From positions 1 through 57,386 of the forward strand of contig CAMNSE010000007.1 in NCBI GenBank assembly GCA_946554525.1: a stretch of DNA of 57,386 nt. The letters are read 5' to 3'. Position 1 is the first letter of the stretch. Every line of letters begins with the position of its first letter. A program made the translations under genes and the position numbers. This stretch comes from an uncultured Mycoplasma sp. (lineage in GTDB: Bacteria; Bacillota_I; Bacilli_A; RF39; UBA660). Below, piece by piece: positions 121 to 47,145 of this stretch. Under the pieces are notes generated by a model. The model worked only from the letters and a program-made list of their open reading frames with translations. It did not search any database and was not told the origin of the DNA.

Positions 121-1548
121 TTAATTATAGCCCGGAATTGGAAGGCCGTAATCTATTACATATGGTAATTCATGTGTTCCTAATCCTCCCAAAATCTTGA
201 CACTAGATTTTAGATATATAGAGGGGCGAACACCATGGCTATTAGTCATAGAAATGCCTCCAATGAAAGCATAGGGTAAGACATAAAGAGCATAGCCAGT
301 ATAATAAGAATCAGGAGTTAGTGTCCATTGACTACCGTCTTTATATAGCCAGTTTTTTCCAGCACAATCTGTTTTTCCATATGAATTTATATTTGTTGAT
401 CTCGGGCATCCTGTTGATGCGTATGTAGCATATCCATAATCACTGGCACTCATTAAGCCTACACTTCCACTCCACGTTGCACTTATTTCTGACGTATATA
501 TTTTATTTGCGTTCATAGTATTTTGAGCTTTGCCTACATTCCACTGTACAGCTTGTATTTTATCCCTTGCTCCGCTTTTTATTCCACTTTCACTAAATTT
601 GCATGTTTTTGTTACACTTGTCGAATATGCATAACATGTTTCATCTGCTGCATTTAAATATCCGTTATTTAAACTAGATTGTAGTGTTGCACTATTCCAT
701 GGGTCAACACTAGTACCAGATAAATTCCACGCTAAGCCATCTAACGTTTCATTTCTTATTAGTTTTACTAAAGATTGCATTGTATCTGATCCACTAGGTT
801 TTACATCAAATACGCCTATTATTCTCCATAATTCATCATTAAATAATACATAGTTATTAGGATCACTTCCCTCATATCTATATCCATTCTCATTTACTAA
901 ACAATCTTTTGCTTGTGTCTCATTTGTTACGCTAGAACTACATACTTTACTTTTTAAGTATGTGTTAAAAGTCTCACTTTTCTTGGCTTCAAAATCAACT
1001 GTACATGTTGTTCCTTTTGTTGCATCTACTTCTACTTGCCAATCTATTAAATCAAACTTTGCATCTACATCTCCTGTACAACTTATACTCTTTGGCATAT
1101 AACTGCCATTCTTAGCTGGAAATGTATCTGTTGCTACATTATTTAATGTTGCAAGTATAGTAATATCATCACTTTCTTCAAATACTAAATGACACTTAGT
1201 TCCTTTATTCCCAACTTGGATATATACTTTACCATCTTTATATTCTAATTGTATACTTGTATCTCTATTTCCATTTACTTCACAGTATGACTCATCACTT
1301 AATGTATATCCACTTGTTGGTACTGCATCTATATCTCTATAACTATCTCCTTCTTTTATTTGGATAGATACTATCTCTAGATCTGTTGGATTCCAAGTAA
1401 CTTTCGTATTTATTAAGTTTAATCTGTGTTCATCTTTATAATTTGCTCTTGTTGATACAAAGAACACTACTGATGCTATTATAAGTACTACAACTGTTCC
1501 AATAAGCCATTTCTTACGATTATCTTTTTTTAATGTCTCAAACTCCAT
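121..1548 (-). CDS. Membrane-anchored surface protein, DUF6273-like C-terminus (paralogue A)
   Basis: This 475-residue protein has a charged N-terminus (MEFETLKKDNRKKW), one membrane segment at about residues 14-33 and no visible cleavage site, so it is probably N-terminally anchored with the rest outside. Residues 35-130 form a Cys-containing module shared with the proteins at 23973-25247 and 39717-41159. The C-terminal half carries NNYVLFNDELWRIIGVF, a Trp-rich middle, a GLMSASDYGYA motif and a closing GVRPSIYLKS. That order resembles DUF6273-type extracellular domains; the assignment is by pattern, not by search. Paralogue A has about 60 extra residues between the two modules. The start follows AGGATAGGGATAAT. 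The function is unknown; display or adhesion is inferred. A double-XRE gene is divergent. Confidence 0.75.
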   Translation of the reverse strand: MEFETLKKDNRKKWLIGTVVVLIIASVVFFVSTRANYKDEHRLNLINTKVTWNPTDLEIVSIQIKEGDSYRDIDAVPTSGYTLSDESYCEVNGNRDTSIQLEYKDGKVYIQVGNKGTKCHLVFEESDDITILATLNNVATDTFPAKNGSYMPKSISCTGDVDAKFDLIDWQVEVDATKGTTCTVDFEAKKSETFNTYLKSKVCSSSVTNETQAKDCLVNENGYRYEGSDPNNYVLFNDELWRIIGVFDVKPSGSDTMQSLVKLIRNETLDGLAWNLSGTSVDPWNSATLQSSLNNGYLNAADETCYAYSTSVTKTCKFSESGIKSGARDKIQAVQWNVGKAQNTMNANKIYTSEISATWSGSVGLMSASDYGYATYASTGCPRSTNINSYGKTDCAGKNWLYKDGSQWTLTPDSYYTGYALYVLPYAFIGGISMTNSHGVRPSIYLKSSVKILGGLGTHELPYVIDYGLPIPGYN

Positions 1549-23972: not shown

Positions 23973-25247
23973 TTAATTTAATACTAAATCATATGGTTTA
24001 GATTGTGAACCATCTTTTCCATTATCAACTATAGATACATTAGATTTTAGATAAACTACCGGATACACTGCATTTATGGATGAAGGTTCAGTGTTCAACA
24101 ACTTACCGCCAAACAAATAAAGGACAGTATTACTACATGAAGAATGAGATGCAATTGTACATTGATTATTACCACTATAAAGCCAATTGTTTCTAAAGCA
24201 TTTCTGTATCCTCATGTCCCCATATTTATTTAAAGTTGTTGTTCTTGGACAAATTTCACTATCTACTGCATATCCATAATCACTTGGATACATTAAGCCT
24301 ATATATCCATTCCATGTTGCTACACTTGGATTTGCAGCAGCTCCTTTTATTCCTCTTTCTTCTATGTAAATCGCTGACGCAGTTTGAACAGGAGATGAAA
24401 CACTACCAATATTCCATTTTACATTTTCTATCATATCTCTTGCTGTATCTTTAATACTTTTTCCTGTTATTGTTACTGTTGGATTAGAACTAACGTGAGA
24501 GTTACTTGGATTTCTATATGTATAATTTATATCTTCTCCAATATAGTATTGTCCATTTAATATTGTTTTTATATCTGACTGTGTCCAATCATTTGAACCA
24601 TAGTCTCCATATGTATCCCAAGCAATGACCCCTATACCTCCTTTCCTTATTATTTTTACCAATGATTCTGTTGTTCCAGATGTTGTTTCTACTTCAAATA
24701 CACCGATTATTCTCCATAACTCATTATTGAATCTTACATAATTATTTGGATTTCGCCCTTCATATCTATATCCTGTATCTATTAATTCGCCACTATCACT
24801 TGTAAATGTTTCATGTACCATTTCATTCTTTGCTATTAAATTTCTACATAAATCATTAGTACAATATTCTTTATCAAAAAATAAATAGCACTTTGTTCCT
24901 TTTTTGCTTATACCAATTTCTACTTTGCCATCTTTATATTCTATAGGTATACTTGTGTCTTTACTTCCATTTACTTCACAATATGATTCGCTACTTAGTG
25001 TATATCCACTTGTTGGTACTGTATCTACCGTATCATATCCTCCGCTAGAGTTTTGTACCTTTATTGCCATTACATTTAAATCACTTATACTATAATTAAC
25101 AGTTTTATTTATTAAGTTTAATCTTTGTTCAGCTTTGTAATTTGCTCTTGTTGATACAAAGAACACTACTGATGTTATAGCAAGTATTGCTATAACTCCT
25201 ACTATCCATTTCTTTCTATTATCTTTTTTTATTGTTTCGAACTTCAT
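23973..25247 (-). CDS. Membrane-anchored surface protein, DUF6273-like C-terminus (paralogue B)
   Basis: A 424-residue paralogue of the proteins at 121-1548 and 39717-41159. MKFETIKKDNRKKW precedes one membrane segment (about 14-33). The shared N-terminal module holds SGYTLSSESYCEVNGSKDTS and KKGTKCYLFF. The C-terminal part holds NNYVRFNNELWRIIGVFEV, YIGLMYPSDYGYA and a final VYPVVYLKS, the DUF6273-like order. I chose the ATG at 25245-25247 behind AAAGGATAGGGATTGT; the longer frame has no ribosome site. The first 90 bases of coding sequence are nearly identical to paralogue C, which suggests recent duplication or gene conversion. The divergent XRE gene probably controls it. Confidence 0.75.
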   Translation of the reverse strand: MKFETIKKDNRKKWIVGVIAILAITSVVFFVSTRANYKAEQRLNLINKTVNYSISDLNVMAIKVQNSSGGYDTVDTVPTSGYTLSSESYCEVNGSKDTSIPIEYKDGKVEIGISKKGTKCYLFFDKEYCTNDLCRNLIAKNEMVHETFTSDSGELIDTGYRYEGRNPNNYVRFNNELWRIIGVFEVETTSGTTESLVKIIRKGGIGVIAWDTYGDYGSNDWTQSDIKTILNGQYYIGEDINYTYRNPSNSHVSSNPTVTITGKSIKDTARDMIENVKWNIGSVSSPVQTASAIYIEERGIKGAAANPSVATWNGYIGLMYPSDYGYAVDSEICPRTTTLNKYGDMRIQKCFRNNWLYSGNNQCTIASHSSCSNTVLYLFGGKLLNTEPSSINAVYPVVYLKSNVSIVDNGKDGSQSKPYDLVLN

Positions 25248-25271
25248 ACAATCCCTATCCTTTACCATTCC

Positions 25272-39689: not shown

Positions 39690-39719
39690 AAAAAAGCATA
39701 GATCAAAGTCTATACTTTA
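39690..39719 (-). terminator. Terminator of surface gene C
   Basis: AAAGTATAGA pairs with TCTATGCTTT around a six-base loop, with a T-run on the minus-strand side. It overlaps the stop of the gene at 39717-41159. Confidence 0.65.
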
Positions 39720-41159
39720 TGACACAACATATACCCCTTGAGAGTCTATAGTCACATTATTTATTTTAGTTGGTTCTATGTTTATAACCGGGCGCAAACC
39801 TAGTTTGTTCGAAACATTATATGGTTCTAAACAACCTGCGCAAATAAATTCCGGCTCTTTCCACACGTCAGCATAATAAGACGTCACCTCACCGTTGGGA
39901 TCGTCGTCAGTACCGATAAGTAATTTTTGGCTTACTAGCTTTATTGGCGACATTGTCCAATACGAATTTCCATTATATAAGTAATAGGCATAGTTTATGG
40001 TACCTGCTATTCCTCCTGCAACTGACGCTTCATCGGCGCTTATTAATCCAACTGGATATGTTAATTGTCCATTTCCTTTTGTTGCGTTTACAGTATATAC
40101 ATCATCTTTATTACCACTTTCATATCCACTTTCATAACTTATTGTACTACATTTAAGGGTTGGATCTTTTTTTGTATATAATCTATAATAAGCACCATAG
40201 TAAGTTGTAGTGGTTCCTGTTCCTCCGGTATTATTTGGTTTTCCTCCATATGTTGTGGTGCTTGTTCTATCTCCACAAAATCCTGAATCAGATAAATAAC
40301 TTGCATAATTTGTCAATCCACTACTTGTATACCATGCATCTAATTGTGTTTTTGCATTACTTGATGTTCCTGTTCCCCTTTTACTTCCGGTTGCATATGT
40401 ATAGCCTACATAGGCATTATCATTAGCAGATGAATTAAAAGTTTGTGATACTACAGCTATCCTATTACTTGTACTTATTCCATTAGCATGATATTCTGTT
40501 CCGTCATAGATTAGCCTTATACTTCCGTCTCCGTTTATTCTTATTATTCTCCAATAGTATCCTGCAAACTTTACATAGTTATTTGTTGGTGACCCTCTAA
40601 AGTAATAACTTGTTCCATAGTCATCTTCCATTGCCCACATTCCCGTTGTATCTTCTCCACATGTCCTTGAGATTCCATTATAGACACCACTAGTACATGA
40701 TGTTTTACTAAAGTCAGGATTGCCTTTGGCTTTGATTATTGTTTCTCCGCCATTTGAAGCTAAAATTATATCTTTTAAGTTAGATTTGTCAAAGAACAAA
40801 TAACACTTTGTACCTTTTTTGCTTATTCCAACACTTACTTTACCATCTTTGTATTCTATAGGAATATTTGTATCTCTACTACCATTTACTGTACAATATG
40901 ATTCATTACTTAGTGTATATCCGCTTGTTGGAACTGTATTAGTATCTGTATAGTTATCTCCATCTTTTAGTTTAATAGATACTATTTCTAAATCTGTTGG
41001 GTTCCAATTAACTTTCGTATTTATTAAGTTTAATCTTTCTGTAGTTTTATAATTGGCTCTGGTTGATACAAAGAAAACTACCGATGTTATAGCAAGTATT
41101 GCTATAACTCCTACTACCCATTTCTTGCGATTATCTTTTTTTATTGTTTCGAATTCCAT
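39717..41159 (-). CDS. Membrane-anchored surface protein, DUF6273-like C-terminus (paralogue C)
   Basis: The 480-residue third paralogue starts MEFETIKKDNRKKW, with one membrane segment at about 14-33 and the shared Cys-containing module (residues 35-130). Its C-terminal domain is a different subtype: NNYVKFAGYYWRIIRINGDG and a Ser/Thr/Gly/Tyr-rich central region (about 250-330), with SYWTMSP and the final LGLRPVINI. This resembles DUF6273 or Fib_succ-type extracellular domains. Swapped C-terminal domains behind one conserved anchor suggest modular surface variation. The promoter spacer contains a run of nine G. The start follows AGAGAGTGATAAT. Function unknown. Confidence 0.75.
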   Translation of the reverse strand: MEFETIKKDNRKKWVVGVIAILAITSVVFFVSTRANYKTTERLNLINTKVNWNPTDLEIVSIKLKDGDNYTDTNTVPTSGYTLSNESYCTVNGSRDTNIPIEYKDGKVSVGISKKGTKCYLFFDKSNLKDIILASNGGETIIKAKGNPDFSKTSCTSGVYNGISRTCGEDTTGMWAMEDDYGTSYYFRGSPTNNYVKFAGYYWRIIRINGDGSIRLIYDGTEYHANGISTSNRIAVVSQTFNSSANDNAYVGYTYATGSKRGTGTSSNAKTQLDAWYTSSGLTNYASYLSDSGFCGDRTSTTTYGGKPNNTGGTGTTTTYYGAYYRLYTKKDPTLKCSTISYESGYESGNKDDVYTVNATKGNGQLTYPVGLISADEASVAGGIAGTINYAYYLYNGNSYWTMSPIKLVSQKLLIGTDDDPNGEVTSYYADVWKEPEFICAGCLEPYNVSNKLGLRPVINIEPTKINNVTIDSQGVYVVS

Positions 41160-41184
41160 ATTATCACTCTCTCTTCTTATATTT

Positions 41185-41212
41185 ATAATAGCATACCCCC
41201 CCCCGGAGTCAA
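41185..41212 (-). promoter_or_regulatory. Promoter of surface gene C with a G9 tract in the spacer
   Basis: On the minus strand TTGACT (41207-41212) and TATTAT (41185-41190) are separated by 16 bases, nine of which are an uninterrupted G run (C9 at 41196-41204 on the plus strand). Slippage in the tract would change the spacing and so promoter strength. This is the layout of known phase-variable promoters. Confidence 0.65.
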
Positions 41213-41224
41213 TATTTTTGCAAA

Positions 41225-41252
41225 ATAAAAAAGCTTTTTAAAGCTTTCTTAT
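41225..41252 (-). terminator. tsaD operon terminator
   Basis: AAAGCTT pairs with AAGCTTT and a T-run follows on the minus strand, about 40 bases beyond tsaD. Confidence 0.55.
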
Positions 41253-41291
41253 TTAAGTTAAACTGGTGTGATTAAATTTCAATTTATATTT

Positions 41292-46939: not shown

Positions 46940-47097
46940 TTATTCAATTTCATATACGCCTTGAGAGTCTATGGCCACATTATTTATTTTAGTTGATTCT
47001 ATGTTTATTACCGGTCGAAGACCAATCGCATTATTAATGATATAACTCTTAATGTCCATTTTTTACGATTATCTTTCTATAATATTTCGAACTCCAT
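46940..47097 (-). pseudogene. Deletion remnant of a fourth surface paralogue
   Basis: Only the two ends of a surface-protein gene remain. The start codon at 47095-47097 opens MEFEIL, then a TAG stop, then KDNRKKWTLRVI, matching the family N-terminus. After the junction the other frame reads IGLRPVINIESTKINNVAID, then SQGVYEIE, and the stop at 46940-46942, matching the C-terminus of paralogue C. The two parts are out of frame. Some 1.3 kb is therefore missing relative to paralogue C. The leader and promoter region still resemble those of paralogue C. Confidence 0.85.
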
Positions 47098-47122: not shown

Positions 47123-47145
47123 ATAATAACATCCCCCGAAGTCAA
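47123..47145 (-). promoter_or_regulatory. Promoter relic of the fourth paralogue, G5 tract
   Basis: TTGACT (47140-47145) and TATTAT (47123-47128) are only 11 bases apart, with five G in the spacer. It is otherwise the same layout as the promoter of surface gene C, where nine G give a 16-base spacer. Confidence 0.55.

Follow-up and report, generated by a model that had tools for sequence, protein, structure and literature searches.

In the window (the whole 57,386-nt stretch of DNA analysed), a gene for a 480-aa protein is read from the minus strand and is preceded by a promoter with a G tract (Table 1). The element at 41185-41212 reads ATAATAGCATACCCCCCCCCGGAGTCAA on the plus strand and TTGACT-CC-GGGGGGGGG-TATGC-TATTAT on the minus strand, where GGGGGGGGG is the G9 tract. 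The -35 box TTGACT, the -10 box TATTAT and the 16-nt spacer holding nine G agreed with the initial annotation of this DNA. That description is widened here, as TG stands one base ahead of the -10 box and gives an extended -10; the promoter scan score was 10/12 with TG. The element is a poly-G spacer promoter of the sigma-70 type, with at least 7 G between its -35 and -10 boxes. The ATG of the ORF is 25 nt past the -10 box.

Table 1. Features of the window at the tract promoter and in related genes.
Feature	Position	Strand	Evidence
Gene for 480-aa protein with predicted N-terminal membrane helix (residues 11-34)	39717..41159	-	ORF, structure model, family searches
Short 5' leader with purine-rich SD-like stretch AGAAGAGAGAGTGATAAT	41160..41184	-	Sequence; paralogues with similar leader
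-10 box TATTAT	41185..41190	-	Sequence
Extended -10 element, TATGC + TATTAT	41185..41195	-	Sequence, genome pattern search, promoter scan
G9 tract within promoter spacer (CCCCCCCCC on + strand)	41196..41204	-	Sequence, shuffles, run counts
-35 box TTGACT	41207..41212	-	Sequence and promoter scan; conserved at ~17 loci of the genome
15-nt inverted repeat, then T-rich stretch on minus strand	41223..41254	-	Inverted-repeat search
Paralogue of 480-aa protein without G tract (internal control)	121..1548	-	Family search
Paralogue without G tract, divergent from XRE-like regulator gene (regulator by eye)	23973..25268	-	Family search
Degenerate remnant of 480-aa surface family, its start fused to its end, with an internal stop	46970-47097	-	Sequence comparison
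Decayed promoter copy TTGACTTC-G5-ATGTTATTAT, spacer 11	47123..47145	-	Sequence comparison

The only repeats found by an inverted-repeat search around the promoter were the terminator-like hairpin and short, imperfect, AT-rich pairs. Long inverted repeats flanking the promoter were missing from this search, and an invertible promoter switched by site-specific recombination was therefore rejected. The hairpin is a probable terminator of the upstream tsaD and would isolate the promoter from that gene; it got no score as a terminator in the sequence scan that scored the promoter. The exact promoter sequence of 41185-41212 was absent from the viral contigs searched.

The GC content of the window was 27.8%. 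Apart from the G9 tract, no G/C run in it reached 7, the next longest being 6. From base composition, the expected number of runs of at least nine G was 0.002 for the window and 0.04 for the genome (1.13 Mb, 28% GC), and dinucleotide shuffles gave 0.09 G8 matches per window. The run is thus as rare in this AT-rich DNA as had been claimed. The genome contained 15 such runs, including two that are both contig ends of one locus, and 15/15 lay directly behind TTGAC. Homopolymer lengths are prone to error in short-read assemblies, which would fit a run that is a neutral homopolymer or arose by a mistake of the assembler, and the tract lengths given here come from metagenome assemblies, where miscalls can occur, and are to be read as assembled. 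The 15 runs observed against 0.04 expected, and the recurrence of the tracts across the class with zero matches for a reversed-pattern control, rule out chance or artefact for the presence of the tract, leaving this explanation a practically negligible probability.

The 480-aa protein had been described as an anchored surface protein. The membrane anchor was supported by the predicted N-terminal hydrophobic helix; a C-terminal sorting signal was not recognised. The product is probably a membrane-anchored protein that may be exposed at the surface. No Pfam, NCBIfam or PDB relative of the protein was found. The mean pLDDT of its structure model was 61, and the best PDB match (E 0.53) was uninformative for the fold. 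A scan of further genome contigs with the protein found no relative.

The multigene family of the protein was present in 13/13 genus genomes sampled. This genome gave 19 matches, of which several are pieces of a single gene, and each of the 12 other genus genomes gave 13-55; 8 genomes from other genera of the class gave 0 matches. The N-terminal 50 residues are found again in ten genes of the genome. At least four paralogues have no tract, two in the window and two elsewhere in the genome, and the decayed paralogue at 46970-47097 sits behind a tract shrunken to G5. Tract-free family members (G000:C20:15016, which is L030, and L017; G000 is the genome of the window) had inverted-repeat promoters, with AACTTAAATTAAGTT, and TATAAAATAGCGAA...TTCGCTATTTTATA, upstream. 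These inverted-repeat promoters may be operators.

The initial annotation covered one locus, and G-tract promoters were found here to be a genome-wide system. A genome search for TTGAC-N-TGCTATTAT gave 18 places, one of them without a G run. A looser pattern and the list of tracts brought the distinct loci with a pure tract of G7-G10 in this genome to about 17. Six clear members of the 480-aa family lie behind these tracts, as do a second family of membrane proteins (MEKKKN...SYAYF), one METKKSKLW gene, the genes for a GNAT acetyltransferase and two sigma factors, and one for a DltA-like ligase (TIGR01734 match with E 2.6e-88, below the TIGR01734 cut-off). The surroundings, TTGACTCC-Gn-TATGCTATTAT, are highly conserved in this species. 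The spacers of the pure tracts were 14 (1), 15 (2), 16 (7), 17 (6) and 18 nt (1). The genome also has three interrupted tracts (GGATAGGGGG, GGGGGGAGG and GGGGAGGGG), and their spacer was exactly 17 in 3/3, compared with 6/17 of the pure tracts. Interrupted tracts would no longer be slippery, and the three form a small natural experiment, which is consistent with 17 being the favoured fixed state.

The tract lengths of similar promoters were compared between loci within a genome, not between strains. Where the 38 flanking nt of two promoters showed no more than 3 substitutions, the number of G differed in 14/23 pairs; where the 38-nt flanks were identical, it differed in 8/9. Therefore, tract length changes faster than its surroundings and is much more variable between loci than the flanks.

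The overlap between contigs of this assembly is exactly 55 nt. The end of C6 and the start of C2 are a 55-mer finishing at the last G of a G9 tract; C9 stops at the 8th G of a tract that C18 reads as G10, and the 55-mer with which C18 starts finishes at the 9th G. The 46 nt upstream of each of these broken tracts were unique in the genome even allowing 3 mismatches. Repeats were therefore not the cause of the C6/C2 and C9/C18 breaks, while reads with differing G numbers would branch the assembly graph. The breaks are as expected if tract lengths were mixed in the sample, and the break positions at the C9/C18 locus would then imply at least three lengths there. Sequencing error or strain mixture could also be the source. 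There was no contig break at 41196-41204 itself, and none of 40 contig starts in two other genomes (G138 and G282) lay at an exact tract end.

Recombination or gene conversion among the repeated promoters, in which a multigene family would have its 5' ends shuffled and the G tract would be a mere part of the repeat, would agree with the many paralogues whose promoter and DNA for the N-terminus are identical; contigs C1, C4 and C13 do break within those repeats. However, unrelated single genes are also driven by tract promoters, the promoter has no long flanking inverted repeats, and the C6/C2 and C9/C18 breaks sit behind unique upstream DNA. As a replacement for slippage, recombination is very unlikely; it could act in addition to slippage.

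Outside this genome, the looser tract pattern matched in 18/36 genomes of the genus. The class was scanned with TTGAC-N(0-12)-G8-N(0-9)-TANNAT in 395 genomes of Bacilli. About 323 matches, summed from the table with overlapping alternatives counted, were found in 56/395 genomes and 41/192 genera. The reversed pattern gave 0 matches and the poly-C version 4. Spacer homopolymers in the class are thus almost exclusively G on the sense strand and practically never C, and a spacer homopolymer of either base was rejected. Slippage alone does not predict this strand preference. A detailed reading of 129 tract promoters gave tracts of G7-G14 and spacers that were mostly 14-21 nt, with most at 16-19. 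Two layouts were present, differing by lineage: the tract lies beside the -35 box and is followed by an extended -10, or it abuts the -10 box. Such a difference in placement between lineages is expected if length, not the bound sequence, matters.

RF39 has been described as uncultured gut Bacilli with reduced genomes that retain mutSL (PMC6784871, PMC7301438). MutS was present in 36/36 genomes tested, this genome included. The idea that the tracts are unstable through loss of mismatch repair was therefore rejected, and no repair defect accounts for their instability.

The G tract might instead mark a fixed class of sequence-specific promoters, in which a regulator or an alternative sigma factor would use it as a binding site or as a conformational element, with the length differences being incidental drift. 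The strict G-not-C orientation, the conserved surroundings of the tract in this species and the sigma factor genes within the tract-led set would all fit such a site. Against it, the tract stands beside the -35 box or abuts the -10 box by lineage and with different flanks, paralogues that are otherwise identical have unequal tract lengths, and the interrupted tracts lose the run but retain a spacer of 17. These results make a binding site an improbable explanation of the run.

The genes behind the tracts were compared with other ORFs from the same DNA pieces. A hydrophobic N-terminal (membrane or signal) segment was present in 85/117 tract genes (73%) and in 79/234 other ORFs (34%; Fisher p 5e-12). 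Many of the remaining tract genes encode regulators or envelope functions, including sigma factors, GtrA-like proteins and ABC ATPases, as well as XRE and IclR-type regulators (assigned by eye).

In contig C15 of this genome (G000:C15, L086; 4500-10000), two tandem sigma genes each have their own tract promoter (G8 and G9) with a spacer of 17. One is SigK/SigE-like with a C-terminal extension, and the other is RpoD-like with long extensions. Orthologues of the SigK/SigE-like gene in two more species also lie behind tract promoters (G10 and G14). In one of these two species, an RpoD-like gene (L409, G043:C4) has a G10 tract in the coding region near the N-terminus and is out of frame as assembled. 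The RpoD-like orthologue in a third genome (G041) has no tract. With promoter tracts in some species and a coding-region G10 in another, one regulator is apparently repeat-controlled in different ways. A two-tier random regulation can be tentatively proposed, although it is rather doubtful: the sigma factors would be phase-variable, and a length change in a single tract would turn an entire sigma regulon on or off, to which the other G-tract promoters possibly belong. If this were true, single-gene switching would be extended to regulon switching, akin in idea to phasevarions.

The initial annotation had proposed slippage-driven phase variation at this locus. Slippage was supported by the recurrence of the tracts, their length differences, the spacers around 17, the preference for membrane genes and the contig breaks, and altered expression at the locus would be its predicted consequence. 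DNA polymerase slippage would add or delete G between the -35 and -10 boxes and shift the spacer towards or away from about 17 nt. The shift would raise or lower RNA polymerase binding, giving a heritable and reversible change in the expression of a membrane-anchored surface protein. Spacers centred on 16-19 nt in the 129 promoters, with the three interrupted tracts at exactly 17. A contingency switch by spacer slippage is highly likely to explain the G9 run, judged from the anatomy and position of the tract, its recurrence, the gene-class enrichment and the length variability among near-identical promoters. We infer that slippage at 41196-41204 occurs in the living population and affects transcription. 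A one-base change of the spacer from 16 to 17 may alter expression in degree alone.

Across the genome, changes in G-run length very probably act as random on-off switches for surface proteins and for a small number of gene regulators. Since the same switch lies at about 17 promoters (two surface-protein families, the dltA-like gene, GNAT and two sigma factors), a population with many combinations of surface proteins would result, and cells of one gut strain are predicted to differ in surface. The benefit would probably be evasion of phage, IgA or competitors. The known cases of simple repeats that switch the cell surface at random come mainly from pathogens. The tracts reported here would form a large, recurrent promoter-based system across uncultured gut Bacilli with reduced genomes.

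The mechanism itself is already known from meningococcal porA and Treponema tp0126. The Neisseria precedent named earlier was confirmed for porA of Neisseria meningitidis, where poly-G lies between the -35 and -10 boxes and expression drops off a spacing of about 17 (PMC7864442, PMC2791445). porA, fetA and opc resemble the present locus in having a homopolymer in the -35/-10 spacer of a surface-protein gene. They are few loci in a Gram-negative pathogen, whereas here about 17 loci occur in a 1.1-Mb Bacilli genome, with paralogous families and sigma factors. In Treponema pallidum, tp0126 has poly-G between the -35 and -10 boxes and is best at 17 nt, and the tract length of tprL varies in vivo (PMC7864442). 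The likeness is again poly-G in promoters of surface-protein genes; the phylum is different, the tpr tracts are partly outside the spacer, and the gene families are unrelated by name. The Campylobacter poly-G phasome (PhasomeIt) is likewise a genome-wide set, mostly of G9 and G10, in a small gut-associated genome. However, 82% of Campylobacter tracts are inside reading frames (PMC6321876), whereas here 15/15 runs of at least nine G are in promoters. In the open-access literature searched, a large multi-locus version with sigma factors in uncultured gut Bacilli of reduced genome was not found described, and no paper was found on such promoter tracts in RF39-type or other uncultured gut Bacilli.

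Variable lipoproteins of mycoplasmas, such as Vlp of Mycoplasma hyorhinis, are also a multigene surface family with combinatorial switching in a reduced-genome relative. The vlp promoters have a poly-A homopolymer near the -10 box, and the Vlp family is defined by a poly-A promoter tract and a prolipoprotein signal with a lipobox cysteine. Vlp are lipoproteins with repeats, and the present locus differs from that definition, with a poly-G tract and a 480-aa protein that has no cysteine after the membrane helix.

Two minor observations were made on the gene surroundings. Weak matches to PF01624 (MutS mismatch-recognition domain), in standalone frames of about 140 aa, adjoin genes of the 480-aa family in G005:C25, G007:C22 and G009:C64. 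Collagen-like genes with Gly-Pro-Thr repeats lie at the contig ends of C12, C13, C15 and C20 of the genome of the window (G000).
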